From: Deroplatys truncata
Taxonomy: Eukaryota > Arthropoda > Insecta > Mantodea > Mantidae
Assembly (NCBI GenBank): GCA_030765065.1
Contig: CM060989.1
Span: 39,733,501-39,797,500 of the forward strand
DNA: 64,000 nucleotides
Direction of reading: 5' to 3'
Below, in pieces: positions 9,126 through 58,947 of the stretch. The position numbers and the translations under genes were made by a program. How positions within the stretch are numbered: position 1 is the first letter of the stretch; each line of letters begins with the position of its first letter. The notes under the pieces are model-generated. The model worked only from the letters and a program-made list of their open reading frames with translations, was not told where the DNA came from and did no database searches.

Positions 9126-9336
9126 TTTTTTTTAATAAATGCGTAACACTACATTTATTGCTTTGATAACATTGGTACAGTGATCGCACTTAGTATCGTG
9201 GTTTGGCTGCGGTATCCGAAGGAAATAGGTTTATTACTTCGGCCACTGCCTGGGCTGTCGATGCGTTCCAAGAGTAGAGTAGATTATAGGTGCAGAGAAG
9301 GATTTCGGAACGGAAGTATATAGGATGCCTATTGTA

Positions 9337-10024
9337 CGAGGGGCGCCCAATAAGTAAGTTTCCCTATTTTATAAAAAACATTAAACACAATTGATCATCT
9401 TAAATTAATTTTATTGTACAATCCTTCTGATACTTTTCTACATAGTCAGCATGTTTTTCTAAGCATTTTTGGGGACGTGACACAAGTTTTTCCAAGCCAG
9501 TGTTGTACCAGGTCGGGTCCTGTGTTCGCAACCAGCTGTTCACTGATTTGACTTCATCATCGGTGTTAAAAGTGCTTACCTTTGAGTTGAAGGAACATGT
9601 GAAAATCACTTGGGGCAAGCTCCGGTGAATACGGAGGATACGAGAAAACTTCCAAGTTGAATCTTGACCCAGGCGGAGCTCAGAAGATTCAACTGGGAAG
9701 TTTTCTCGCATCCTCCATATTCACCAGATCTTCTCCCAAGTGATTTTCACATGTTCCCCTGACTCAAAGGTCATCATTGAGGTAAGCACTTTGACACCAT
9801 GATGAAGATCAATCAGAAGTGAACAGCTGGTTACAAGCACAGGACCCGATCTGCTACAATATTGGCTTGGAAAAACTTGTGTCACGTCCCCTAAAATGCT
9901 TGGAAAAACATGTTGACTATGTAGAAAAGTAACAGAAGGATTGTAAAATAAAATTAATTCAACATGATCAATTGTATGTAACGTTTTTATAAAATGGGGG
10001 AACTTACTTATTGGACGACCCTCG
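9337..10024. mobile_element. Palindromic element made of two mariner 3' ends
   Basis: Arms 9337-9665 and 9690-10024 are inverted copies of the same mariner 3' end, from the outer TIR (GAGGGGCGCCCAATAAG) inward through the last part of the transposase. Both arms read toward their own outer TIR. The left, minus-strand arm has LEKLVSRPQKCLEKHADYVE, the typical mariner C-terminus. A TA precedes the left end; the right flank is AA. No transposase core is present, so the element cannot be autonomous. Confidence 0.85.
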
Positions 10025-10469
10025 AACCTACTGAAGCTCTGGGAGAAAGGAGCGGAGCGGACAGAGAGGGCGACCAAACCGGAGTCGCAGGCTCGAACCC
10101 GGCTGGACCGCCCTCCCTAAGAAGAAGTTTCGCGGGAATTCATCACACACCGGAACGCCAGAATAAGCAGTTACTCAAAGAAAATTCATGATCTCATGCC
10201 GTCCACTCGCCTGATCCCACGACCCTAAAACATAATAAGCAGGCATAGGAATTTCTAAGCATTAAAGCCAGGACGAAAGGAAATTAAATTGAACCGTTAC
10301 TGGGCTTAACGCAGAGACCACCCACATTCCTTGTACAGTCTGTTACGTTTGTAGACAGCGCTTACCGGACTGTGTTTACCTGCCCGTCAGCGACTCATGA
10401 CCGCTGTTGTTTACATTCTTTGTATTGACAATAGTTTTGCGTGTAGATAACTTGAAGTCAACTGCTTAA
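10025..10469. other. GC-richer spacer with a tRNA B-box-like site
   Basis: A tRNA-like B box (GCAGGCTCGAACCCGG) at about 10087 suggests a small SINE remnant. Nothing else was seen. Confidence 0.35.
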
Positions 10470-35250: not shown

Positions 35251-35353
35251 TCATATCATTCCAAAGCCTTCTGTCCCTTCGTTGATGGCAAGTAGCAATG
35301 CTCTCTCAAACTGCTCATAGCTTTCATAGTCAGGCAGACACAGCTGATTGAAA
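35251..35353 (-). CDS. AREL1: AREL1 terminal coding exon g with catalytic Cys and stop
   Basis: After acceptor ACTTTTCAG... (minus strand CTTTTCAG) the first base T completes the TG/T cysteine codon. The exon then reads FNQLCLPDYESYEQFERALL, LAINEGTEGFGMI and a TGA stop. The C-terminal FGM(I/L) ending is typical of HECT ligases, where the tail residues contribute to catalysis. The 3' untranslated region continues toward lower coordinates. Confidence 0.94.
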
Positions 35354-38300
35354 CTGAAAAGAAATTGTATAACAAGTTAATTAAGTTGAATATTTCAAGC
35401 ACAAATACAATATCAAGCATATTCTTACACATCCCTTCTATGGCAAATTGGTCTAGGAAAATAGGTCACCCTTTCTTTTGTTATAGTTATGTGTGGTTTC
35501 ATAGAGTTTGTCACAATATTTATTCTTCATATGTTGAGGCACTATTTTAATACCTGAATAATTTCAATTGTATTTTATAATAGGTAAATTCAATAACAGC
35601 CCGTCTTGAAACAATATGTATGTAATAATTATTTGAATCGTATGTAACAGTCACTGCAAATGCCTATTTTTATTGTAAACATGTTTTAATAATGTTATGT
35701 GAATACATTACATACTCTGATAATGCAAGAGCTGTGAGAATAATAAGTTTTAAGTTGCTAACAATGAGGTAATAATGAGGTAACCTTGTGGCAATAATGA
35801 GTTTTAGAGTTTGAAAATTATTAGTCATGATTAAAGCAACGATAATGTAATTTCTCTAACAGTTTAAAATTAGCCAATCAACAGCAAAGAAAAGCTTTAA
35901 GTAAAATACAGATATTCTATTGGACTAGAATTAGCCAATCAAAGACTTGAAATACCGAAGCTTACGGGTTTTGACAGTTGAAAGTTGCTCAGTTGCTGGC
36001 AAACCTTGGTAGTGAACAGATGGAAGATGTGTTCTCTACATGTGAATCGTAAAATATGTATACGCGCTAAGTGAAAGTATTAAAGATTCTCACAGTTCTT
36101 AAAAAGTGTAGTGCTTTATAAAAATGTGCAAGGATTAATAGAAGAAGTGAATTTAAAAAGTTAAATTCTGTGATGTCTACATTCTTGTTGCACCACGCCC
36201 TGTCTAAGACTCATGACTCTACAAACATTACTGAAGCAGCCGAGGCAAATAAAAAAAAAATCTGATGTGTTACACTCACATGACTTTCTCTACTCTTGTA
36301 CAAACTATTTTTACAAACGCTTATTCTCCATCTACTTCATCTTAATCGAGATAAACATTTGCAGAGTCTATCTTATTGCTAATTTTCTTGTAGATGTAAG
36401 GGTACTATATATTTACAAGGGCAATATAGAAATACAGTAGCCTTTAAGCACATACATATCTCTTAATAACTGGTTGCTAGGTGCAGCACCATTCCCTTTG
36501 CCACAGATTAATACTCTTTGCATATCCAAGACAAAAAAATGAATAACGAATTCCCATTTGAGAAAATAAGTATTGAAAAATTTAAGGGAATAACAAGCAA
36601 TATCTCAAAAATGGTTCACTCAACAAAAAAATGTATATGACATAAATTGTGTATTTTAACGCGATCTACATTTTTTATGTAGTAAACTTTTGTCTATCTC
36701 TTATGGTTTACCAGTTATGCAAAAGTTGTTCACAATGAAGAATACTTTTGGAGACATTCCCAGAAAATTCAAGATATACATTTTATTTGTCATAAAAATA
36801 TCTTAAACATATGATATTTTAATCAAAATCGCTACAGCCATTTTTGAGAAAATTAAAATTTTCGAAAAATCTTCCATGTAAAGGGTAATCTGGGGTGGGG
36901 GGATTTTCTTGAAAACCTTCGTGTCGCATCTCTGGAAGATACTGAACCTAAATACCAAGTTTGGTGTTTATCCGACTGTTAGTTTTTGAGTTATGCTGTT
37001 CACAGACACACACACGGACATGTTTCCAAAAATGCTTTTTTTTGGATTCAGCGGGTCTCAAAACATGTATTTCCGATGAAATCTCGGTATCGAATTTTTG
37101 GGTGGAATACAATACTTTCCCTACTTACTATACATAGAGAAAGTAATAAATAATATATAGAAGCAGTGTTGATAACAAAGTTAAATATTATAATGTAAAA
37201 CTTGGAGTGTAATAACAAAACACATCTTGAAATCAGCTTCTCATACGTAGCAGCATACTGCATAATAACAGTAACTATTACGTAATCAACAAATTTAAAC
37301 CGATGTCCAAAGCGTGTTGCAAACTCCTTAAAGCACATAATATTTATGTAAACATATTTACGTGAAACAAACACAACTACTTCAAGTTGGCTCCCATATG
37401 TGGGACAGTTAAAATTACGTAACCCGACAAAACAAAAGCAGCACAACATAACAATCTTCAAGTTAAACAATATGTAACATATTTTATATAACAAACATTC
37501 ATTCTTCAATGTTACTATTTGTCATTGAATACTTTCATCTCAACATTGTCATATGACATGTACAGTAGAGGTCTGTACAGACTCAGGTCAAGCCCTCAGG
37601 CCTAGGCCTGTGGTCCCAGTTCAGGCTTAATTTGAAAAATGTTTGTCAGGTCCAGGTTTGAAAATAAATATGAGGCATCTTTTTTAAGTAAGCACCAATA
37701 ATTCTTTAAAAAGTAACAGAACATTGTTTTACAAAATATTTTACTATCATTCATTGCCTTACAGTACTTCCCTACTTCTCTACATAGTCACCATCATTTT
37801 TCAGCCACTTGTCATAACAGGAAACCAGTTTTTGTATGCCTTCATCAAAGAATGATGCCACCTGTGATGAAAGCCAAGTCTGCACTTCTTGTTTCGCAAC
37901 AGTCCGGATTTGACACCACGTGATTTTCATCTGTTTCTTCATCTGAAGAATGGTGGAAAACATTAAGACGATGATGTTGTGAAACAAGTAGTACGGACTT
38001 GGCTTTCATCACAGGTGGCATTATTGTTTGGCAAAGGGAAGACAAAAACTGGTTTCCCGTCACGACAAGTTCTGAATAATGGTGGTGACTATAAGAAGTA
38101 GTGTAAGGTAATGAATGATGATAAAGTATTTGGAAAATAATGTTCTGTTATTTTTTAAAAAGTTATTGGTACCCACTTTAAAAACATGCCTTATACGAAA
38201 AAAATTATTTTATCACATTTAATATAGCAGTTTATTTGTCATATTATCTTAAACGTGTGGTATTTTAGTCAAATCATTAATTAGAAAATAAATAAAAAAA

Positions 38301-41300
38301 CTTTTTCATGTAAGGGGAAAATAAAGACGAAAAACAATTAATTTGTCACATTTTTTTGGTCTGCAATGTTAAGTTAGCACAATTTCAGAGCATGCATACA
38401 TCCATTGCAAACTATGCCTCCCTCCATTAACCCACACCCAGGACACCACAAGCAAAGTGCAGTAATAAGAGCAGCATGTCAATAAGGCAGTATGCCAATG
38501 ACCTGATGCTTACTACATGCATATTTCAGGACTTCAGATACCCTATTTCTGTAAAGTGCATCCTCAATTGGTCCGAAGACCTGAGTGCACCCCTTAATAG
38601 GCCTCCAGCAGGGGAATAAATTCCCATGCCGGTAACTAGAAATCAAACCTGGGTATCTCCCCACCACAGGCAACAGCACTTTGTGGACTAATAATAATAA
38701 TAATAGTAGTAGTAGTAGTGAATAACTGTAGAATAATTTATATATAACAAAACTAGACAATTGGGCCTGGGCAAGGTGATACAGTATAACCTATTCTCAG
38801 CTGCAGGCTTGGTTCAGCACAGGCCAGGTTGGGGCCAGGTCTAAGAATTTCAGCCTGTACAGACCTCTCAAGTGCATGGAATCATGCCAATATTAACGCT
38901 CAGTGGTTTATGTTGGTAAGAAATACTAAACCACCTCTGCCATACCCAGTCCAATCCGGCCCCCCACCACCCTCACCCCTTACCTGGTTCTAGCACTCCA
39001 CTTTACGTTTGTATTATTCTCCCCTTTTCTTTCACTCCTAACCTGAAACTAAGTGGTGTTCATAGGTTAATATTTTAGTGCTAGACTTTTGACATCAACT
39101 ATATGAGATAGACACATCCAGAGGCTGGGATGGACAGTCATTGTCAAACATACTTTCCAGCCATTCAGACAAAATGTTACCTTACTCTTCCCATTTTGTC
39201 ACTCACCTAGGCCCGACCTTTGTTCATAGGTTAATGCATGTGTGTTGAACTTGAATTCTAACTAATAACAGATTGACTCACATGGGGTTGGTGTGGAACC
39301 CAGTTGATACAGAGTTTCTGCCAACATTAATAAAACAAAATCCTAGAGAAAACCAGAAGCATTGGCATGTTTCTGTGTACATAACTGCACTTGTCGCAAT
39401 ATTTTGTAATTTTGTTTTAATGATATACATTTCATTTGTCATGAAAATATCTTAAACATATGATATTTTAATCAAAATCGTTAAGAGTCGTTTTTGGCCG
39501 AAATTCAACCGTTTCGGAACAAACTTTGCTACTAAATGTTTATACCACTCATAAACTCTTGTCTTACTCATAGTAGATTCACCAAAAGCCATAGTCAACA
39601 TTTCGAATGTGGTGCTGCACTTTATTCTGTTTTTCAAGCAAAATTTAATGCAAATTCTTTGATCCATCTTTTCAACAGTAGAAGTATTGCAAAATTTAAG
39701 GGAATAACAAGCAATAACTCAAAAATGGTTCACTCAAGAAAAAAAATGTATATGACATAAATTGTGTATTTTAACGCGATCTACATTTTTTGTGTAGTAA
39801 AAGTTTGTCTCTCTTATGGTTTACCAGTTATCGAAAGTCGTTCACAGTGAAGAATACTATTGGAGATATTCCCAGAAAATTTTAATGATATTCCAAAGTT
39901 TAATAAATTGGACAATTTGTAGCTTAATAAAGATATTATATGATATTGTTTTCTTGTTTGTAATTTTTAAGATTATTCATAATTTTTTTCGAAAAATGTT
40001 CCATGTAAAAGGTAATCTGGGGTGGGGGGATATTTTCTTGAAAACCTTCGTGTCGCATCTCTGGAAGATACTGAACCTTAATACCAAGTTTGGTGTTTAT
40101 CCGACTGTTCGTTTCTGAGTTATGCTGTTCACAGACACACACACGGACATGTTTCCGTGAAACATATTTCCGGTGAAATCTCGGTATCGAATTTTTGGGT
40201 GGAATACAATACTTCCCCTACTTACTGTATGTAGTTAGAGAAAGTAAAAAACAGAAAAAAAACCCTCAAATTTTCTAAATCTGTCTTGCACACTCAAACT
40301 TCTGAGAGAAGTATGATAGTGACAGTTTGTGATACTTTAGTACAGTGAAAATAATGTAAGCATTTGATTCAAGTTAATGTTATTAGCTGTAGAAAAATAA
40401 ATTTTTGTTTTTGTGAAGTTGCCGGTGATAAAAAGTTTTCTTGTTTTTCAGTATAAATTAATCTTTTATGAGCCAATGAATTAACCAATCATAAAATGCA
40501 TACTTGTAGCTTTAGATAACACATTTTACATCATGTATGCAAACGTGCATACAAATCAGAGGAAAACTGAAATGTAAGGAATAAATTTCATGTGCAAAAA
40601 AGTAAAACTGAGAAAAAACACACACAGAAAGCATCCAGTGGGGCTAAAAGGGAGCCCATGGGTGGCTTTTAAAAATTGCGGATCATGAAAAACACCCAAA
40701 ATGATTCACAGGTTGTCTATAGAATATGTATATGATATAATTTAAAAATTGAAAATTTTGTCATTTTCACCTAAAACCTCAGCCCAATGTCCCTTAAGTG
40801 AAGCAAGAAGAATGCTAAAGTAATCTTATCAGTTTCTTAATTCAATTATGTGTCTAAGCTAACTGTTATTACATACCATGTATGAGCTGTAGGAAGGTTG
40901 CCAAAAGTAGGTGCAGCAGTAATCTGGAATCGAGGGCTAAGCTCCGAAAATCCTCCAGGAGGAAGCTGTGAACATCCTGTTGTGAACTGCAGAAGGCGAG
41001 CCATTTCTTCTTGAGTAAAGTTGGCAACTGCAGTCCAGAACCAATCAAGGATACGCCGAAATTCTGGAGAACCTCCATTTACCACATGATTGGCTCTGAA
41101 GTCTGCCACACTGTATTCCCCTGTTCCGCACAGCAAAAGCTGAAAAAACAACAGCAATTTGCTTATAGTAGTGATTATTTCTGAAGATTTAGTTTGAGAT
41201 GGTATTAAGAGGTTGAAAAGTTTTGAAGGAAGATTTTTTATAAATTAGAAAAGGGAACAGATTTCAAAATGGAGACATTGTTAGAAAATAATCAAAGAGC

Positions 41301-44300
41301 TTAAAAATATATGTTACTTTGCGTTAAATTAATAACTCATAAAAATTGTAATATTTCTTTGTTACTTAAAGCAATATTTGTATATTATTGGATTAGTTAA
41401 AAATGTCCAGAATATTAAGAAAACAAGAAAAATATAATTATTTTAGTAGATGTCATAGCCAACATAATGAAACTCAACATTGTGAAAATTTTTTGTATTA
41501 CTTCAATTGCTTTCTAGAGGAGTCAATCAACAATGGTTATTGACTTGGTTGCTATGGCAATGTCCAAAAAGCTATATAAGGCTTGTTCAGAGAAGGGGGG
41601 ATTCACTTGTCCGCTCAGGTGATTCACCAGGACTCAGCCAATGGCAGCACAGGAAGCAAAGCTCTGCCCACTGACACCCAACATAAAAGCCTGTGAAAAC
41701 TGATGAACCTATTATATCACACAGGTAAAGCCACGCTAGCGGCTAAGTACTGTGATGATTTTACATTCCACTCAAGTAAACCTGGGCTCTTGATTGTTGG
41801 ATTGAGGGGATTCATTCATAGCATCTCTTTACAGCACTTTGTAACTTCGCATAACTTGCAAATGGGATTGTGGCTAGGAAGTATTGTTATCAATATTCAG
41901 GATGTGCTTTGGGAGTGAAAATACTTCACAAATTAGTACCATGTTAGCCTCTAGTTCCTGAGTTGTAGGTTCAAACCTGGCAGAGGGCAATGGATTTCTT
42001 TCGGACGTAAAAATCCTTGAAGTAAAGCCGGTGGCCCAGTGTCAAAGATTGAAGTCAAATATTTGTTGTTAGTTGGAAGATGCTTCATGTTTATCTGCCC
42101 CACATATGGGAGCCAATTTGTCGCGGTAACTCGTGTTATCTTATGCTGAGCACCTGTTATTGTTTTACTATTTTGAATTTGGGTTCTTTGTCCTCCGGCT
42201 AGCTATTATTACTACTCAGTCGAGCATATCTCTTGAACAGGGTGTGTAAATGGAAAGGATTTATTACTGAAAGATAACACTGATAAAAGAATTTGTTTTT
42301 ACACTTTTATTGCCGTCACTTTTAATTAATTTCACATATTGACTCTTGATACACACCTGACTGAAACTGTTATATTTTCGAATGTAACTAATAACACTTA
42401 TTTGCTGCACATTATTAATTCGCGTATTTCACATCTTTTAACTAACTTTACGACGCGAGAGATTCTGTAGAACTGCGCGACGTTTGCCTTGTGAATTATT
42501 CTGTAGAACTGCGCGACGTTTAACCCGTGAATGATTCTGTTGGACTGAATGTTACCCGTTTCTGGCTTTAGCTTTTTATACTCCCTCACCCCGATATGCC
42601 TAAACATTATAACAGAGCTGCTATTGGTTAATAAAGCGCGCCAACATTAGCGTCTATATTTTTATCCAATCAAAATTACGAACACATATGCTCTAGGGAA
42701 GATATTCCCTCCATTTCTACAGAAAAGCGCGCTAATCTGACGTCATTTGTTTGTCTCTTATAATTGATAAACAACTCCCCCCTCGCTCATTGTTACCCGC
42801 TCTTATTGTCAGTTTCAGTGAGGCCATGTAAACTTATTTCCTAACAATGCTTATAATTAACAAACATCTCAAATCAATGTCATAGAATAATGCTTATTTG
42901 CACTATAATCACTCTGGCATTTACATTGTTGTGATATAAAATACTGCCACAAGATTTAAAATAACCTCAAGCCTTATAAAGAGGCCTCTTTCACACCCAA
43001 TATAGAATGGGAGGCTAAGAACCATAGTAGTTAAAGAGCGTTTATAAATAAAACTTGATTTAATTTTAATTTTACTTCAGAAATTCTGCAAACAAGTGTG
43101 AAAATCTGATTAATTGTGATTCAGTTGTTATTTTGAATAAATATCGAGATTTTCAGAATAAATTAGAAATTTCTGAGAATTCGCAACTTATTCATATTAC
43201 CTTGCTGTACCATGACCCGAGATATTAGTAAACTAGAGGTATCATAGCTCAAGCATTTCAGAATAAACAATGCAGCTCAAAGAATGATGGAACCAGTGAG
43301 AAAGGTACATTGCAGAGATAAATTGACGCATCAAGATCATCAATCTTGGTGAGTACTGTAAATTTGAAATATGCCAGAAACACCTGCTAAGCAAAATATC
43401 TTAAAAATAAAAATCCAGCATTCAACGGAGTCAGAGCTGCGTGAGTGAATAAACACTCATTACACAAAACCCTATACAAGTTATAAATATAATTAATAAA
43501 ATATACATTTTGTCATACAAATATCTTTAATATATGATATTTTAATCAAAATTGTTAGACCTATTTTCAGAAAATAAAAAATTTAGAAAAACGTTCTATG
43601 TAAACCTAGTTTAGAGTTCGAGGATTTTCTTGAAAACCTCTGTGTTGCATCTTTGGAAGATGCTAAACTTAAACACCAAGACTTTTCCTTTTTCAGTTAT
43701 GGTGTTCATACACATGCACCTTTTTCTAAAATGATAAATGATCTTTTTGAATTCAGGGGGTCTCAAAACATGTATTTGTGATGAAATATCAATACTGAAT
43801 TTGGGGTGGAATGCCACACCTTCTGTAACCACTATATGAGGTGTGATAAAACGATAATGGGAATGTTTTTAATTTCACGAGCTTTATACACCCAATGTTC
43901 AAAACTTTTGTTTTGTCTTGTTGATACACATGTTCCGATGTATGTTTGTATTTTCAACTGTTTTGAATATTTAGTTTATTGTTGACAGTTGAAAAAGTTA
44001 TACCTGTTTTCGAGTGTTTGGCGGAATTTTACTTTTGAAAAGTTGGATCAAAGAATTTGCATTAAATTTTGCTTGAAAAACGGAATAAAGTGCAGCACCA
44101 CATTCAAAATGTTGACTATGGCTTTTGGTGAATCTACTATGAGTAAGACAAGAGTTTATGAGTGGTATAAACATTTAGTAGCAAAGTTTGTTCCGAAACG
44201 GTTGAATTTCGGCCAAAAACGACTCTTAACGATTTTGATTAAAATATCATATGTTTAAGATATTTTCATGACAAATGAAATGTATATCATTAAAACAAAA

Positions 44301-47300
44301 TTACAAAATATTGCGACAAGTGCAGTTATGTACACAGAAACATGCCAATGCTTCTGGTTTTCTCTAGGATTTTGTTTTAGTAATGTTGGCAGAAACTCTG
44401 TATCAACTGGGTTCCACACCAACCCCGTGTGAGTCAATCTGTTATTAGTTAGAATTCAAGTTCAACACACATGCATTAACCTATGAACAAAGGTCGGGCC
44501 TAGGTGAGTGACAAAATGGGAAGAGTAAGGTAACATTTTGTCTGAATGGCTGGAAAGTATGTTTGACAATGACTGTCCATCCCAGCCTCTGGATGTGTCT
44601 ATCTCATATAGTTGATGTCAAAAGTCTAGCACTAAAATATTAACCTATGAACACCACTTAGTTTCAGGTTAGGAGTGAAAGAAAAGGGGAGAATAATACA
44701 AACGTAAAGTGGAGTGCTAGAACCAGGTAAGGGGTGAGGGTGGTGGGGGGCCGGATTGGACTGGGTATGGCAGAGGTGGTTTAGTATTTCTTACCAACAT
44801 AAACCACTGAGCGTTAATATTGGGATGATTCCATGCACTTGAGAGGTCTGTACAGGCTGAAATTCTTAGACCTGGCCCCAACCTGGCCTGTGCTGAACCA
44901 AGCCTGCAGCTGAGAATAGGTTATACTGTATCACCTTGCCCAGGCCCAATTGTCAAAGAGGGTTGAGAAGACGTTGAAGACGACAACCACCCTGGATGCC
45001 CTAGCACATCAATTACTGATGACAATGTGGAAGAAGTAAAGAAAATCATTCTGGAAAATCACCGAATCATCATCAGAGAGGTTGCTGAAGATGTCGGCAT
45101 ATCCTTTGACTCACACCAAGCAATTGTTTTGGATGTTTTGGGCACAAAACGTTTAGCAGCAAAGTTTGTTCTGAAATGGTTGAATTTCGGCCAAAAACGA
45201 CGTCGCGTAGACATCGCTCAGGAATTGCTGAATGAAGTCGAAAATGATCCAGAACTTCTAAAGAAGGTTTTAACAGGTGACAAAACATGGGTATATGGGT
45301 ATGATGATGAAACTAAGGCCCAATTGTCCCAATGGAAACTGCCTGAAGAGCCAAGACTGAAAAAAATTCAACAAGTTCGATCACATGTGAAGGTTCTTCT
45401 CACTGTTTTCTTTGATTACAATGGGATAGTGCATAAGGAGTTGCTGCTTTATGGTTGTACAGTCAATAAGGAATACTATTTGGAAGTTATGCGCTATTTG
45501 CATGAAACAATTCTAAGAAAATGACCAGAATTGTGGCAAAACCACTTGTGGAAATTGCATCACGATAATGCACCCGCTCACACCTCAATGCTTGTTCTTG
45601 ACTTTTTGGCAAGAAGCAAAATCATTATGCTGCCTCAGCCACTGTATTCGCCAGATATGGCCCCCCCCCCCTGAGACTTCTTTCTATTCCTGAGGCTGAA
45701 GAGAACCAAGAAAGGAAGACGTTTTGCCACCATTGATGAGATAAAAACAGAATCGCTGAAGAAGCTGAACATCATAATGAAAAGTGAGTTCATGAAGAAC
45801 TGCTTCCAAAATTGGAAAAAGTGCTGCCACAAGTGTATTATATCTGAGGGGGATTACTTTGAAGGGTACAAAGTTGATGATTAAATAAAAATTCTTTAAG
45901 GAAAACAAAAATTCCCATTACTTTTTGATCACACCTCGTATATAGGGAAGAGAAAGTAAAAATAAAATGCAGCAGAAGGTTAATATATACATCCCAGCTT
46001 ATTGCTTACTCCAGTAAGTTTTCTGTGTACATGGTTTCTTCTTTACGTTTATTAGTTAACAACCTCTATACTTGTCTTAGCCTTACCTCTAGCTCATTCT
46101 CATCGAATATGCTGAGTAAATTATCAGGTATCAGTTCATTTAGCCCTTTCAGGAAATGTTCCACTTCATCCTTAAGACTGGTTGCTAGTTTATACTGTGC
46201 AAGTGCATCCAAATACTGATGTTTTGTACTGTTCAACACACGGATCTTTGAGCCTCCAGGAACTAGTTCAACAACCTATTAATCACATTAAATTTTAGTG
46301 ATCTTATGAATAACATCTCCTTTACTAAGAGTGTTACAAAACAGAGATATGTAATATTCATCATTAGAAATGCTGCTTCAATAACACAGAATTATACACA
46401 CCTTTATTAACTGACCACATTTATCATATTCTTCTTCCACAAAATACAGTTCCATTTCCTCAACATCATGATCCAGTATATACTTCACTTTGCTTAGATA
46501 CAGATCTGGATCATCCTGTTCAAAATACTGCAAAGGAAAAATCAACCTTAATTTGTATAGTTTGAATATCTTTAGTTTTTTGTTACTCAGAATTTCTTAA
46601 CCAGATTACAAAAAAAATGTAGCAATTGGATATCAGACGATATGACAGTAGTAATTAAAGGTAAGTGGGGTACTGAGGTAGAATTAAAAGCAAATGAGTT
46701 ATTGAAAAAAATTAAACAATATTATATAAATCTGGACATGATTCTAAATCAATTGCATTGCCTGTTTTGTGTACTCCCAGTTTATAAGTTTAATGGGTTC
46801 GCCCATGCATACTTCAAAATGCACATGCTTTATATGCACTCCTCCCTGCAATTCCAAAATTTCAAGTCCTTACATGACCAACTCTGCATGACCCTCAAAT
46901 TGCAATTGATCTTACTCGTGCATTCTAGATCTCATTATGCAAGTTTCGTTTTGTCTATCAAATTATGTGACAACTCCCTTTAAATATAATTTCTCAACAG
47001 AATTTTCTTAAAATAAGCGTAATTTTCCTATTGGTGGATAAATGCTATAGTAACTCTCACACTTAGCTTTCTCACATGTTTTTGAAACATAAACATTCTG
47101 ACCGTTCCCATGAGAACTGATATGATTTCAAGATAAAATATGTTCCTGCCGAACTGTTTACTGTAACTAAAAATCTCACGGTCTTTTGTCCTGGTCACAT
47201 CTGCTTGTAGTTATAAACAAATTCACTGCCTGACACACTGGCACCACTTTTAGCAAGGTGGTCTATTGTATTTCTAAACAGGTCTGTGTTTTGCCAGCCA

Positions 47301-56300: not shown

Positions 56301-58947
56301 AAAAGAAAGAACAGATTTTAAATATTCATTTTTAATAAACGATAATAGTTAGCAACACATATGACACATCATTAAATAGCGGAAAGCTCAAAGTTTTAAC
56401 TCCCACCTATTAGTTCCATTCAGTGCCTACAGCAGTGCTGTGTTTGTTTATGAGAAAGTGGCGACGCCACAGGGAAAGTCGTTTTGTGTGCTGCATTGTG
56501 CAAAGAGCAAATCCACTGTTTCATTGCAGCGTGCATTTCGTTGTAAGTTCCTTGTCATAAAAAATTTACAATTGATGGAATAAATATGCAAAAGCACTGG
56601 TTGTCCTCGCTTAACAAATGGTGCTCATTTTGAACACAAAAAATAAAATTTTAAACTTTTCTCTATTCAGTGATGTATCGCATGTGTAGCCATCTATTGT
56701 CGTTCATTAGAAATAAATATATTAAGTCTGTTCCTTCTTTTTGAATAACCCTGTATATATAGTGCTTCCTTCACACTGCAGCTGCACCAGCTGCCACAGC
56801 TCGGACTTCTGCCAAAATAGTTAAAATATCCCAGCAACTGCCTCATGTTCTCATAGTTACAATTACAATGATAATAAGCACATACCTTATCATAAGAGAT
56901 ATTTGAAATGTTGTCCTCTATCCACATATTTCTGGCATCTTCTCAGGAAATTTTCATTCAAACTAGAGTTCAATATTCAAAATTGAGTGAATTTCTTGCC
57001 TGATGTTTTTTACTTTCTCTACTACGTATAGTAAGTAGAAGTATTGTATTCCACCCAAAAATTTGATACCGAGATTTCACCGGAAGTACATGTTTTGAGA
57101 CCCCCTGAATAAAAAAAAAGCATTTTTGGAAACATGTCCGTGTGTGTGTCTGTGAACAGCATAACTCAGAAACGAACAGTCGGATAAACACCAAACTTGG
57201 TATTCATTTTGAGTATCTTCCAGAGATGTGACACGAAGGTTTTCTAGAAAATCCCCCCACCCCATATTACCCTTTACATGGAAAAGTTTTCGAAAATTTT
57301 AATTTTCTCAAAAATGGCTCTAACGATTTTGATTAAAATATCATATGTTTAAGATATTTTCATGACAAATGAAACGTATATCTCGAATTTTCTGGGAATG
57401 TCTCCAAAAGTATTCTTCATTGTGAACAACTTTTGCATAAATGGTAAACCATAAGAGATAGACAAAATTTTACTACACAAAAAATCAAGATCGCATTAAA
57501 ATACACAATTTATGTCATATACATTTTTTTTGTTGAGTGAACCCTTTTCGAGATATTGCTTGTTATTCCCTTAAATTTTCCAATACTTACACTTTTTCTC
57601 AAATTCGTTATTCATTTTTTTTTGTCCTGGTAATGCAAAGAGAATGGAATACTCCACATAGCAACCACCTCATAAAATATTTGACTATCGCTTAAAGCCT
57701 AGCAATTCCCCTTGCATCTACAAGAAAATTAGCAATAAGATTAACAACTCGATAAACATGAAGCATATGGAGAATAAGTGTCTGTAAAAATAGTTTGTAC
57801 AAGAGTAGAGAAAGTCATGTGAGTGTAACACATCAGATTTTTTTTTTAGCTCTTACAATGTAGGGGTTTATTGCACACACCTTATTTTTCATGTGATTAT
57901 CAGTCGGGTAAATTTCTGTAATTGGAGTTTGCGAAATGACAAAAGTCATGCTTAATATTCTTCCCTGATGAAGTATGTATCCATTTATATAGCTATGTTC
58001 TGTTGTAAAATAACAGATATTGGAGTACAGAGAAACCTGATTTTACATACGAGCACCCCTTACATGATGCAAAAATTGGTGTGCAATAAATGCATAGAGA
58101 ATTAAAGAACCTATAGTTTTTGAACAAACAATAAATGCAGAGAGTTACAAATATGTCATACTCACACCATTTTTTGAACAGCTGACTGACGTTCAATGCC
58201 AGTCTGGATTTTTCCAAGACTCTGCTACTGTGCATACCGCTGATGAGTTGCTAAATTTAATTATGAAAATTTTTGAAGATTGGGTAATTAGTAGAGGATT
58301 ATGGTCCTCAAAATCTCCTGATTTAACTGAATGTGATTTTTATTTATGGGGGAGCTTGAAAAATACGGTGTATGCAAAAACCCCCATACACTGGAACAAC
58401 TAAAAGAAAATTTTCTGAGAAGATGCCAGAAATATGTGGATAGAGCAGGACATTTCACATATCTCTTATGATAAGGTATGTGCTTATTGTCATTGTAATT
58501 GTAACTATAAGTATGAGAACATGAGGCAGTTGCAGAGATAATAAACTTTTTTTGGGGCAGATGGAGCCGAGGCGGCTAGCGTACGAGCTGCCAAGCCATG
58601 GCCGCAGTGTGAGTGAATAGCACTGTACTTTGTAAGACAAGATTACTAGTAAAAATATATAATTTTCAAAGCTGTAATTCCAGCTATCAGAATGTGAGGC
58701 AATTATTATGCTTTCAAGTTCAGATGGTTTTCTATTTTAGCATGGAATTTGTTACACAATTTACGTCATGATCGTTAAGATTACTTCCTAAAGTAAATAA
58801 AAACACATATTTAAGTGTCACTTACAGACTCCAGGAGCTTATCACGATTGATTTTCATTGGTAACTTTTCATGATAGTGTTTTTGATGATATTTTCGAAC
58901 TTCGTGATAGAAGAAGTCTTGTTTATCCTTGAAGGTTTCTGAACCAC
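35251..58947 (-). CDS. AREL1: AREL1 HECT E3 ubiquitin ligase, 3' part (seven coding exons)
   Basis: Seven minus-strand exons join in phase into about 388 residues plus stop, matching the C-terminal half of AREL1 (apoptosis-resistant E3 ubiquitin ligase 1) almost segment for segment. Order: extended N-terminal region with HEVRKYHQK, N-lobe start GLDWGGVRREWFE, VGKCLYESALGG, RARFTRSFLAQIIGLR, VEHFLKGLNELIPDN, IFDENELE, LLLCGTGEYSVADF, RLLQFTTGCSQLPPGGF, the catalytic stretch PTAHTCFNQLCLP, and the usual HECT tail ending GFGMI. HECT ligases accept ubiquitin from an E2 onto the cysteine and pass it to substrate; in mammals AREL1 targets IAP antagonists such as SMAC. All introns are GT-AG; they run from 126 bp to 7.5 kb. 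The filamin-like N-terminal half should lie beyond 64000. The family assignment rests on remembered human AREL1 sequence, but the match is extensive. Confidence 0.95.
35535..37508 (+). mobile_element. Solo LTR fossil carrying a HINE-like insertion
   Basis: It starts TGAGGCACTATTTTA and ends CATTCATTCTTCA, with ATGT on both sides (35531-35534 and 37509-37512). Aligned with the unit at 32731, it is interrupted by the HINE-like copy at 36261-37146. It lies in the last AREL1 intron, about 0.2 kb from the terminal coding exon. Confidence 0.72.
36261..37146 (+). mobile_element. HINE-like copy, full length, inside a solo LTR
   Basis: It runs from TCTGATGTGTTACACTC after an A run to TAGAGAAAGTAA. 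It is one of the best-preserved copies (about 886 bp) and useful as a consensus source. Confidence 0.8.
37567..38868. mobile_element. hAT-like element carrying a mariner palindrome
   Basis: Inverted ends AGAGGTCTGTACAG (37567-37580) and CTGTACAGACCTCT (38855-38868) are followed inward by GGCCTGGGCC-type sequence on both sides, as in many hAT families. The 8-bp duplication is not obvious. A 522-bp mariner palindrome is inserted at 37672, and a HINE-like fragment lies at about 38205-38325. The region 38461-38700 looks SINE-like (B box near 38655, TAA repeats at 38688-38703). Confidence 0.5.
37672..38193. mobile_element. Second palindromic element made of two mariner 3' ends
   Basis: TIRs TGAGGCATCTTTTTTAAGTA and the counterpart ending ACTTTAAAAACATGCCTTA are flanked by TA. 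The left arm (minus) encodes VQTWLSSQVASFFDEGIQKL and YDKWLKNDGDYVEK. The right arm (plus) is an inverted copy of the same C-terminal region and TIR. The architecture is that of 9337-10024, but the mariner family differs. Confidence 0.82.
38757..39680. repeat. Large inverted repeat, left arm
   Basis: About 0.9 kb is present again in reverse complement at 44034-44954, with only a handful of differences seen on reading (for example CACATGGGG here against CACACGGGG there). The arm comprises the right end of the hAT-like element, a unique segment, a short HINE-like piece (39428-39478) and a mariner 5' fragment (about 39480-39680, minus orientation). Confidence 0.9.
39686..40246 (+). mobile_element. 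HINE-like copy, 5' truncated
   Basis: The internal region and 3' end (TTACTGTATGTAGTTAGAGA) are present; the 5' part is replaced by the mosaic at 39428-39680. Confidence 0.7.
40877..41139 (-). CDS. AREL1: AREL1 exon f, HECT hinge and C-lobe
   Basis: The acceptor TTTTTCAG is followed by LLLCGTGEYSVADFRANHVV, FWTAVANFTQEEMARLLQF, TTGCSQLPPGGFSEL and APTFGNLPTAHT. The exon ends ACATG/GTATGT, leaving TG as two thirds of the catalytic cysteine codon. It covers the hinge and most of the C-lobe. It is the one exon flanked by the large near-identical inverted repeats at 38.8-39.7 and 44.0-45.0 kb. Confidence 0.95.
41140..41944. other. AREL1 intron sequence
   Basis: A plus-strand frame at 41703-41918 is present, but its protein is not recognised. 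No repeat was identified. Confidence 0.4.
41945..43060 (+). mobile_element. tRNA-derived SINE interrupted by a solo LTR
   Basis: Pieces 41945-42049 (B box GTAGGTTCAAACCTGG, then TTCGGACGTAAAAATCC) and 42952-43060 (CAAGCCTTATAAAGAGGC to GAATGGGAGGCTAAG) join into the SINE family at 11041. A second copy of this family thus received an LTR element. Confidence 0.65.
42050..42951 (-). mobile_element. Solo LTR fossil with clear core promoter
   Basis: On the minus strand it starts TGTGGCAGTATTTTATATC and ends ATTTGACTTCA, with AGAT duplicated on both sides. It has GAGTATAAAAAGC (TATA box) and an arthropod initiator-like ATTCAGTC about 30 bp downstream. Two copies of an approximately 38-bp repeat (CGTCGCGCAGTTCTACAGAAT-type) follow. 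It is related to the units at 32731 and 35535 by its ends, but the interior is diverged. Confidence 0.72.
43061..43498. other. AREL1 intron sequence, nothing recognised
   Basis: No repeat or coding frame could be supported. Confidence 0.35.
43989..45884 (+). pseudogene. Mariner transposase interrupted by foreign sequence
   Basis: The N-terminal part (44043-44173) reads LDQRICIKFCLKNGIKCST and STMSKTRVYEWYK. The coding sequence resumes at 44955 with KEG.EDVEDDNHPG (one stop), NVEEVKKIILENHRIIIREV and VLTGDKTWVYGYDDETKAQ (first Asp). HHDNAPAHTSML (second Asp) and YSPDMAP...DFFLF (third Asp, with a C run causing a shift) follow, then EGDYFEGYKVDD. A stop lies after LHETILRK. The second half alone would not be functional. 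Confidence 0.88.
44034..44954. repeat. Large inverted repeat, right arm
   Basis: It is the reverse complement of 38757-39680. It begins in mariner sequence at AAGTTGGATCAAAG and ends CCCAATTGTC, exactly where the mariner transposase resumes with AAAGAGGGTTGAG. The AREL1 exon at 40877-41139 lies between the arms. Confidence 0.9.
46087..46275 (-). CDS. AREL1: AREL1 exon e, HECT N-lobe
   Basis: Sixty-three codons in phase 0 at both ends lie between acceptor TTAATAG and donor GAG/GTAAGG. Key segments are VVELVPGG, YLDALAQYKLA, VEHFLKGLNELIPDN and IFDENELE. They match the end of the AREL1 N-lobe before the LLMCGTG motif. The intron that follows (46086 to 41140) holds a rearranged mariner and a solo LTR. 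Confidence 0.95.
46402..46527 (-). CDS. AREL1: AREL1 exon d, HECT N-lobe
   Basis: Exactly 42 codons lie between acceptor TTTGCAG and donor AAG/GTGTGT. They read YFEQDDPDLYLSKVKYILDH, DVEEMELYFVEEE, YDKCGQLIK. This is the E2-binding side of the N-lobe in HECT folds. It is separated from exon e by only 126 bp, by far the shortest intron here. Confidence 0.95.
46528..47431. other. AREL1 intron sequence, nothing recognised
   Basis: This is part of intron c-d. The plus-strand frame at 46642-46983 has no recognisable domain. Confidence 0.4.
47432..48349 (-). mobile_element. Mariner deletion derivative (918 bp)
   Basis: TIRs TGAGGTTTGTTCAAAAAATT and the counterpart ending TTTTTTGAACAGACCTG are flanked by TA. 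About 0.37 kb is missing relative to a full mariner. Confidence 0.9.
47494..48154 (-). pseudogene. Mariner transposase lacking its central region
   Basis: The N-terminus MAELEEQRICIKFCVK, with KNGQMEVKDDPHSGHPST, is followed by a deletion that removes the first catalytic Asp region. The sequence then continues at RRKRPEMWRENSWLLHHDNA (second Asp), HPPYSPDLASAEFF (third Asp position) and LKTPLKGRIFATIDKIKENS to the stop. The deletion explains the short element; frameshifts are also present. Confidence 0.85.
48350..48852. other. AREL1 intron sequence, nothing recognised
   Basis: It contains a short A/G-rich tract at about 48520-48548 and no other feature. Confidence 0.4.
48853..49142 (-). CDS. 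AREL1: AREL1 exon c, HECT N-lobe core
   Basis: This 290-bp exon has acceptor TTTTCTAG and donor AAG/GTGAGC. It encodes LDWGGVRREWFELTCAALF, the FSDSQQALVHPNPHRPSHLK region, YEFAGKVVGKCLYESALGG and RARFTRSFLAQIIGLRVHYK. These are hallmark HECT N-lobe motifs in the AREL1-type version. It ends in phase 0 and joins YFEQDDPDLY of exon d. Confidence 0.96.
49557..49884 (-). mobile_element. tRNA-derived SINE (about 330 bp)
   Basis: On the minus strand the head reads CCATGGCCGAGTGGTTAGAC (A box) and CCCGGGTTCAATCCCAGG (B box). This recalls a class II (Leu/Ser-like) tRNA. The body follows to 49557. It lies within AREL1 intron b-c. Confidence 0.75.
50080..50152 (+). tRNA. tRNA-like sequence, probably a SINE head
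   Basis: This 73-nt unit has a perfect 7-bp acceptor stem (GGTCTGG/CCAGACC). It has a T arm GCAGG-TTGCAAA-CCGGC with one mismatch and an anticodon stem GCCTT/AAGGT, but an 8-nt anticodon loop and a weak D stem. An A box (GGGTGGCTCAGTTGATTAGG) and a T5 run at 50158-50162 are present. The odd loop and the SINE-like sequence that follows argue against a working tRNA gene. Confidence 0.4.
50165..51239. other. AREL1 intron sequence, nothing further recognised
   Basis: Several short frames are present, none with a domain. Confidence 0.4.
51240..51315 (-). CDS. AREL1: AREL1 exon b (76 bp)
   Basis: This short exon lies between TCTTACAG and the donor CAAG/GTAAAG. It reads SMKATKGFSVSDWCRNFEI then TFQGEQG, starting in phase 0 and leaving one base of the next glycine codon. 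That base joins the GT at the start of exon c to restore GLDWGGV, which is strong evidence for both boundaries. The exon contains no long open frame of its own, so it is easily missed by ORF-based annotation. Confidence 0.93.
51451..51540 (-). repeat. Dispersed repeat fragment, inverted relative to 55905-56000
   Basis: The reverse complement of this piece matches 55905-56000, sharing AGAGAGTTGGAGTTA, TTTTTGAATTCTCA and GGTTATCC/GGCTATCC. The family is unknown. Confidence 0.5.
51696..52290 (+). mobile_element. LINE remnant, 3' part of reverse transcriptase
   Basis: Plus-strand pieces read AKFLGITLNQNLKWIHHIEP, IFTIQKRTIHLIRNINC, YIFKLLN, HRYTHKSKLFEESFKR and NKLPLAFRNSEVKSFKIQL. This is the order seen at the C-terminal end of Jockey/CR1-like ORF2 proteins (FLGI...W..HI, QKR.IR, N.LP). 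Several frameshifts and stops show an old copy. A GGGCGCTAATAACCC segment at 51639, upstream, resembles a LINE/SINE tail. Confidence 0.6.
52333..52440 (-). mobile_element. tRNA-derived SINE copy
   Basis: It is reverse oriented: GAGCTACCATGGCAAC and GATTTGAACCACGG are the complements of the A and B boxes, and the tail begins GACTGAAAAATTCAAT. With 52706-52862 it forms an inverted pair. Confidence 0.7.
52706..52862 (+). mobile_element. tRNA-derived SINE, cloverleaf-like head
   Basis: TGCCATG and TATGGCA can form a 7-bp acceptor stem around an A box (TAGCTCAGTGGTTAGAGC) and a B box (GTGGTTCAAATCCCGG). The tail TGAATTTTTCAGTCATC continues to about 52862 (GGCTTGTGTGAAAGAACAAT). The family also occurs at 5310, 30440, 52333, 53940 and 54240. 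Confidence 0.75.
53350..53535 (-). pseudogene. Tc1/mariner-superfamily transposase fragment
   Basis: The minus strand reads QQDGAPVHCAQNVYQHLNQ (second catalytic Asp), then WPTRFPDLSPLGFFLCVHL (third Asp region). This is the pattern of insect Tc1/mariner-like transposases with RSPDLTPLDFFLWG. TIRs were not found. Confidence 0.6.
53940..54350. mobile_element. Inverted pair of tRNA-derived SINE fragments
   Basis: The minus copy at 53940-54010 (CAACTGAAAAATTCAATGCC) and plus copy at 54240-54350 (AGTAGCTCAATGGTTAGAGC, GTGTTTAAATCCTGG) face each other. They repeat the arrangement at 52333/52706. Confidence 0.6.
54489..54670 (+). mobile_element. SINE fragment without tRNA head
   Basis: The body of the family at 11041 (ATCCTTAGCATGGCTTCC, TTTACGGCATGTAAAAGAAC, GAATGGGACGCTAAGGACC) is present; the 5' head is missing. 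Confidence 0.6.
54941..55580 (+). mobile_element. Penelope-like element fossil with inverted terminal repeats
   Basis: Inverted arms of about 150 bp (54941-55097 and 55430-55580) share AGAGAGTTGGAG, TTACACTACATCACTAAAAG and GCTCCCAT(T/C)GTCAGCTTG. They enclose a GIY-YIG endonuclease domain fragment: YNLVYIGRTKRN, LEIRFKDQ, KSAVAHHF. GIY-YIG joined to inverted repeats is characteristic of Penelope-like retroelements. No reverse transcriptase is present, so it is a broken 3' remnant. Confidence 0.72.
55905..56000 (+). repeat. Dispersed repeat fragment matching 51451-51540 in reverse
   Basis: See the partner at 51451; the two are inverted relative to each other within the same AREL1 intron. Confidence 0.5.
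56289..56753 (+). mobile_element. Short TIR element with transposase N-terminus relic
   Basis: TIRs CAGGGTTATTCAAAAAGAAA and TTCTTTTTGAATAACCCTG lie within TA. Inside, one plus frame gives KSFCVLHCAKSKSTVSLQRA then FRCKF, like the helix-turn-helix start (VTVQRAFRRKF) of the Tc1/mariner-like transposases whose C-terminus is seen at 58261. It is a 465-bp deletion derivative. Confidence 0.72.
56760..56950 (-). pseudogene. Tc1/mariner-like transposase C-terminal relic
   Basis: The minus-strand sequence from 56950 (GAAGATGCCAGAAATATGTG, then TATCTCTTATGATAAGG) matches 58415-58530 in reverse, so the two are inverted relative to each other around the HINE-like copy at 57010. Confidence 0.55.
57010..57837 (-). 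mobile_element. HINE-like copy, full length
   Basis: It runs from TACTTTCTCTACTACG to ACACATCAGA with T runs on both sides. It is well preserved. Confidence 0.8.
58255..58530 (+). pseudogene. Tc1/mariner-like transposase C-terminal fragment
   Basis: It reads LWSSKSPDLTECDFYLWGSL (third catalytic Asp motif), KNTVYAK, then after a frameshift PHTLEQLKENFLRRCQKYVD and a stop. The family normally has a longer segment between LEQLKEN and RRC. Confidence 0.7.
58826..58947 (-). CDS. AREL1: AREL1 exon a (first coding exon in window)
   Basis: The acceptor TATATTTCAG precedes the exon, which opens with two bases of a split glycine codon. It reads SETFKDKQDFF, YHEVRKYHQKH, YHEKLPMKINRDKLLES and ends at a strong donor, TCT/GTAAGT, in phase 0. 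In mammals the corresponding segment lies just before the HECT N-lobe and forms part of its extended N-terminal helices. The 7.5-kb intron that follows holds a LINE, SINEs, a Penelope-like fragment, a MITE and a HINE-like copy. Confidence 0.93.

Follow-up and report, generated by a model that had tools for sequence, protein, structure and literature searches.

Near-identical inverted repeats around an AREL1 exon of Deroplatys truncata as a probable templated insertion into a mariner transposon

The locus lies in a stretch of 64,000 nucleotides from the mantis Deroplatys truncata (GenBank assembly GCA_030765065.1, contig CM060989.1, positions 39,733,501 to 39,797,500, forward strand), henceforth called the window, and all positions given below refer to it. 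It holds the last coding exons of a gene assigned by sequence to AREL1, a HECT E3 ligase, and the two introns on either side of the exon before last carry the arms of a near-identical inverted repeat. This repeat is read here, with a probability of about 85%, as a templated inverted insertion that was copied from the downstream intron into a mariner transposon of the upstream intron. The features on which this reading is built are the following:

46087-46275, minus strand: AREL1 exon preceding the arm B intron (domain and structure match, joined translation)
40877-41139, minus strand: AREL1 exon of 263 bp, HECT positions 185-273, ending in the TG of the catalytic cysteine codon (splice signals, Pfam, structure match)
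35251-35353, minus strand: coding portion of the final AREL1 exon, supplying the third base of that codon (35251 computed from the translation)
38756-39683, plus strand: arm A, very probably the source copy (alignments of the arms, genome repeat matches)
44027-44954, minus strand: arm B, very probably the derived copy, within the mariner transposon (alignments of the arms, genome repeat matches)
38602-38868, plus strand: interspersed repeat R1, extending to both sides of 38756, where arm A has its outer end (genome matches, fetched loci)
39534-39683, minus strand: stretch of arm A matching the 5' coding part of mariner, the likely priming homology (alignments of mariner copies)
43837-45938, plus strand: mariner transposon with TA-flanked inverted ends and a broken reading frame (ends, transposase domains)
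44177-44953, minus strand: putative templated inverted insertion of 777 bp (empty site in mariner relatives, TC microhomology at the right junction)

On the minus strand, the exon at 40877-41139 is bounded by a CAG acceptor and a GTATGT donor, and its translation matches positions 185-273 of the 306 positions of the Pfam HECT model (E-value 1e-20). After joining of the three last coding exons, the best matches were to AREL1 (6jx5, E-value 9.5e-81; 6loh, 2.8e-74), followed by the NEDD4-like family (5hpk, 7.5e-42), and by sequence the exon is assigned to an AREL1 orthologue. An earlier note on this DNA had described the exon as encoding the HECT hinge and most of the C-lobe. The cysteine of LPTAHTCFN, the catalytic cysteine of HECT, is not encoded by this exon alone, as its codon is split (TG/T) between the end of the 263-bp exon and the start of the last exon. 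A DNA search of the 4.29-Gb assembly returned a single match for the exon, and there was no sign of an exon inversion, the exon being present once and in coding orientation in this one assembly. Arm A is located in the downstream intron (35354-40876, 5523 bp) and arm B in the upstream intron (41140-46086, 4947 bp), so that the placement of both arms in the introns around the HECT exon of one transcript, as proposed in the earlier note, stands.

The two arms (38756-39683 and 44954-44027) were aligned over 928 nt without gaps and with 8 mismatches (99.1% identity), and are separated by 4343 nt. Their near-identity and complementarity had been noticed before and are borne out by this alignment; of the arm ends given at that time, two are moved, from 38757 to 38756 and from 44034 to 44027. 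About 150 of the 928 nt (39534-39683) constitute a general match to the mariner family. Inverted pairs were surveyed by BLAST within the window (minimum length 150 bp, E-value up to 1e-10), and the top 12 pairs as well as those touching the two AREL1 introns were itemised. Among the 46 inverted pairs, the arm pair had the highest identity and was the only one above 97%, the runner-up reaching 96.3% over 164 bp; it was also the only pair bridging the exon at 40877-41139. The controls for the base rate of near-identical inverted pairs were confined to the window and 70 fetched loci. The latter (228,605 bases) held four inverted pairs of at least 150 bp, the best with 93.1% over 217 bp; these loci had a length of about 3.3 kb each, were picked around repeats, overlapped in part, and were too short for a pair spaced like the arms. 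The arm pair is not due to chance, since the next pair in the window reached only 96.3% over 164 bp and no other pair bridges the exon. In the spacer between the arms, a 36-bp unit is repeated 2.4 times (42461-42547).

Arm A is a patchwork of repeats. From its outer end inwards, it comprises the last 113 bp of R1 (38756-38868), a second repeat, R2 (~38868-39395), a short segment from a further repeat (~39421-39490), and a piece of mariner (~39487-39675), which carries an internal deletion and runs to ~39675-39683, where a different repeat begins. Position 38756 is crossed by 37 of the 39 other listed R1 matches (69-85% identity; the remaining two stop short of it), and all 18 fetched R1 loci run through it with 20 bp or more on either side. 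Unlike these R1 copies, the match of arm B begins exactly at 38756. Among the matches listed, i.e., the best 40 of 7281 candidates scored, R2 was represented by 38 others at 72-77% identity, and no third full-length copy of the 928 nt was present among the 41 matches in the 4.29-Gb assembly.

Several further observations were made in and beside arm A. At 39487-39541, its mariner fragment brings together two segments of the transposase gene that are otherwise separated, with other copies among the listed matches aligning to each piece separately. The region 37567-38868, which includes R1, is a possible transposon with 14-bp inverted ends, and the alignments of many fetched relatives stop at 38866-38868; one relative locus (L056) contains nine matches to the end of this possible transposon, spaced by 123-124 bp. 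The ends of R1 were located in only some of the 18 loci, and R1 was left unclassified because target duplications at its ends were merely suggestive and seen in single loci. Adjoining arm A in the downstream intron, there is a self-complementary stretch at 37669-38195 (550 alignment columns, 76%).

Arm B interrupts a mariner transposon. The element carries GAGGTGTGAT at both ends with a TA adjacent to each, i.e., the terminal inverted repeats and flanking TA of a mariner, and has a computed length of 1325 bp when the insert is subtracted. A Mos1-type helix-turn-helix domain (HTH_48, E-value 4.9e-06) precedes the interruption and a DDE domain (Transposase_1, E-value 2.6e-10) follows it, both in separate pieces of the reading frame. 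The 5' part of the element had 39 other matches, with identities of 89-92%, among the best 40 of 1740 scored candidates. The two mariner parts flanking the insert lie side by side or nearly so in 27 of 29 fetched relatives, and the remaining two yielded no second mariner part. In 23 of these 27, the join was within 1 bp of seamless; the other four had 9-12 bp fewer at the join, with the second part also starting later in the alignment. The joined 36-bp empty site, allowing up to 8 substitutions, was present in 26 of the 29 relatives. On the 3' side, all 39 other listed matches have their start within 44953-44956, without any of them extending into the insert. The empty site was read in relatives of the transposon elsewhere in the assembly, as opposed to the same locus of another individual. 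The 777 bp at 44177-44953 thus sit between two neighbouring mariner bases, and no mariner base was lost.

The direction of copying can be read from the outer end of the repeat. Since R1 continues past this end in arm A but is cut in arm B where the mariner resumes, arm A was in all likelihood the source and arm B the copy. The copying is fairly recent. Across 38756-39533, the arms differ at 3 of 778 positions. Across 39534-39683, which is mariner sequence in either arm, 145 of 150 positions are shared (96.7%, five differences), and arm A shares on average 93.8% identity (range 90.0-96.7%) with 34 other mariner copies, the closest of which is as different from arm A as arm B is. The mismatches are clustered, with three in 848 nt and five in the last 80 nt (Fisher p 0.0002, for a split chosen after the sites had been seen). 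At 39667, arm A agrees with 33 of the 34 mariner copies and arm B with one; at 39676 and 39681, arm B matches all 15 mariner copies that align there (19 fall short) and arm A departs from them, in keeping with its mariner fragment ending nearby. The two remaining sites, 39604 and 39628, vary within the mariner family. Because arms A and B have the same base at five other family-variable sites (39537, 39551, 39581, 39592, and 39610), part of 39534-39683 seems to have been copied too, and the start of the copy would lie somewhere between 39534 and ~39667. Outside this stretch, comparison with R2 loci indicated a change in arm B at 38886 (four of the five covering loci share the base of arm A, and the fifth has yet another) and at 39330 (6/6 loci), and a change in arm A at 39283 (6/6 loci).

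The direction, the empty site, the absence of mariner loss, and the homology and microhomology at the junctions are thereby read from the sequence, whereas a break or stall, an invasion, and end joining are the steps we infer. Three features of the locus are those of a templated insertion: the donor continues past the copied part, the recipient has a recognisable empty site, and the junctions carry homology of up to 150 bp on one side (left, mariner on mariner) and a 2-bp TC overlap on the other (right). The best mechanism is one-ended, homology-primed synthesis, whether in break repair or through template switching at replication, with end joining as the last step. Before the event, the downstream intron would have held the patchwork of old repeats including the mariner fragment, and the upstream intron, some 5 kb from it, a near-complete mariner pointing the other way. 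After a break or fork stall in this upstream mariner, its end could have paired with the downstream mariner fragment (up to ~150 bp of homology), and synthesis past the end of this homology would have copied ~777 bp of the old repeats. On leaving its template at 38756, the new strand would have been joined, through the 2-bp microhomology, to the mariner base that comes next. Comparable steps are on record: in flies, incomplete synthesis followed by end joining accounted for most of the products recovered in an assay of P-element excision (PMC2895639), and inverted templated insertions of yeast have one end made by a polymerase and the other joined (PMC11724301). What the earlier note had missed is that one arm was copied from the other as a templated insertion, and that the pair is not a designed hairpin.

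The strongest alternative keeps the same direction of copying and replaces break repair with template switching of a replication fork without a double-strand break, presumably of the kind described as fork stalling and template switching or microhomology-mediated break-induced replication (FoSTeS/MMBIR). It fits nearly as well as one-ended invasion with end joining, and we put it at somewhat less than even odds. The return to the next base without loss, the inverted homologous fragments about 5 kb apart, and the 2-bp microhomology speak for it, as does the description of template switching as widespread in great ape genomes (PMC7954356); against it, homology of up to 150 bp could have served at the start in place of microhomology. 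The sequence of one locus cannot separate it from break repair.

The templated insertion as set out above has to be weighed against several points. The polarity of the mismatches is based on just 6 R2 loci, and the R1 copies that place the outer end of arm A are only 69-85% alike. The boundary between the own mariner sequence of arm B and the copy is not fixed, given the family variation at 39604 and 39628 and the five variable sites at which the arms share a base. The inverted insertions of yeast are mostly 5-34 bp in length, far below 777 bp (PMC11724301), and template switching would account for the resumption at the adjacent mariner base just as well as break repair does. Finally, the evidence comes from one assembly alone.

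At the RNA level, 919 of the 928 positions of the arms could pair, with a computed energy of -1737.8 kcal/mol. The arms form a reverse-complementary pair that bridges an exon of one transcript, as do intronic pairs that form circular RNAs, and the AREL1 pre-mRNA would hold a possible duplex of ~0.9 kb around the exon before last. Such a duplex could raise skipping or back-splicing of this exon and attract RNA editing; back-splicing or skipping is plausible, and a circular RNA from the exon is possible. In Drosophila scro, most of the circle output requires intron complementarity, with a basal level remaining without it (circScro, PMC12060249), and in C. elegans flanking complementarity promotes both back-splicing and exon skipping (PMC8330042). 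By conceptual translation, skipping of the 263-bp exon leads to a frameshift with a stop after seven residues, so the skipped product would be without the C-lobe and the catalytic cysteine; the exon repeated as a circle has stops in all three frames. A strong expectation for splicing is weakened because in the honeybee complementarity fails to separate circularised from linear exons (PMC6347836), and because each of the two introns contains repeats with possible partners at other places in the window. One such competing pair, should the region at 57 kb belong to the same transcript, would be 36514-37150 with 57006-57642 (91.5%). A circular RNA of AREL1 was not met with in the titles and abstract openings turned up by a literature search, which is no proof of its absence from print.

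We regard it as unlikely, if conceivable, that through one recent error of repair the penultimate exon came to lie within a near-perfect RNA hairpin of 0.9 kb, and that this gave rise to a new single-exon circular RNA and to a skipped, ligase-dead AREL1 isoform, neither of which is made by relatives without the insert. If true, the locus would be a natural gain-of-hairpin experiment, i.e., one on whether intron complementarity alone alters the splicing of an exon. That the repeat has been kept because it yields a circular RNA with a function, or a ligase-dead isoform under regulation, is very improbable. The uniqueness of the arms as an exon-bridging pair (at least 150 bp, in the window), the predicted duplex energy, the fly and worm examples of circles and skipping (PMC12060249, PMC8330042), and the frameshift with its stop after seven residues would suit a function, but the origin of the repeat is young and accidental, the same introns have rival pairings such as the 91.5% pair above, and complementarity is not predictive of circles in the honeybee (PMC6347836). 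In mammals, moreover, circles accompany young transposons, which the authors take to argue against widespread functional conservation (PMC8516420).

The remaining explanations of the arms themselves fare still worse. The inner junctions are identical in both arms and arm B lies within a larger mariner, as would suit arm B as the source, copied into the downstream intron; however, the outer end of arm A lies inside R1, at a position crossed by 37 of 39 other listed matches and 18 of 18 loci, and a copy made from arm B would have hit the point of mariner resumption by chance, which makes this direction most improbable. Hardly better is a mis-assembly of one arm: the sequence is from one assembly, but the arms differ at 8 sites, their flanks differ, and the junctions are biologically sensible. 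That one transposon family inserted twice independently, once in each orientation, an idea to which the other long inverted pairs of the window (76-96% identity, resembling pairs of interspersed repeats) might lend a precedent, is the least credible, with just two full-length matches in the 4.29-Gb assembly (best 40 of 7281 candidates scored) and an arm composed of at least four repeat pieces with its outer end inside R1; the copies do not stop at element ends, and further copies of the same unit were not found. Gap repair after mariner excision was rejected, as both mariner ends are present and the 5' part of the element differs by 8-11% from the 39 best other copies, compared to 3/778 between the arms outside 39534-39683. 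Transposition itself was probably not the trigger either, because both ends are present and the divergence of the element far exceeds that of the arms.

Elsewhere in the window, at 9334-10027, a near-palindrome of ~690 bp matches its own reverse complement at 84%.

If read correctly as a templated insertion, the locus documents a single step towards long near-perfect inverted repeats, by way of two oppositely oriented transposon fragments, with donor, recipient, empty site, and direction all readable in the sequence. Such repeats are the raw material for intronic hairpins, circular RNAs, and inversions. The insertion event is unusually legible but of a known kind; a literature search on ectopic inverted insertion in Drosophila returned no match, which does not prove absence from print.

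Among known systems, the host element of arm B shares inverted ends, TA flanks, and transposase domains with mariner transposons, and differs from an intact mariner in being broken and interrupted, its mobility probably being irrelevant. With the intronic complementary sequences beside circularised exons (PMC12060249, PMC8330042), the arms have in common the reverse-complementary stretches in both introns of one exon, whereas here these measure 928 nt, are nearly perfect, and are known from genomic sequence alone. The templated and inverted break insertions of yeast likewise combine a polymerase-made end with a joined end and contain an inverted copy of nearby sequence (PMC11724301); in contrast to their usual 5-34 bp, the present insertion spans 777 bp, and transposon homology in place of microhomology would have served as the primer. 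A parallel in mechanism is synthesis-dependent strand annealing with end joining in Drosophila, in which synthesis is primed by homology and the new strand is then joined to the other end (PMC2895639), with the difference that here the template would have been an inverted homologue at an ectopic site some 5 kb off, and an insertion the outcome.

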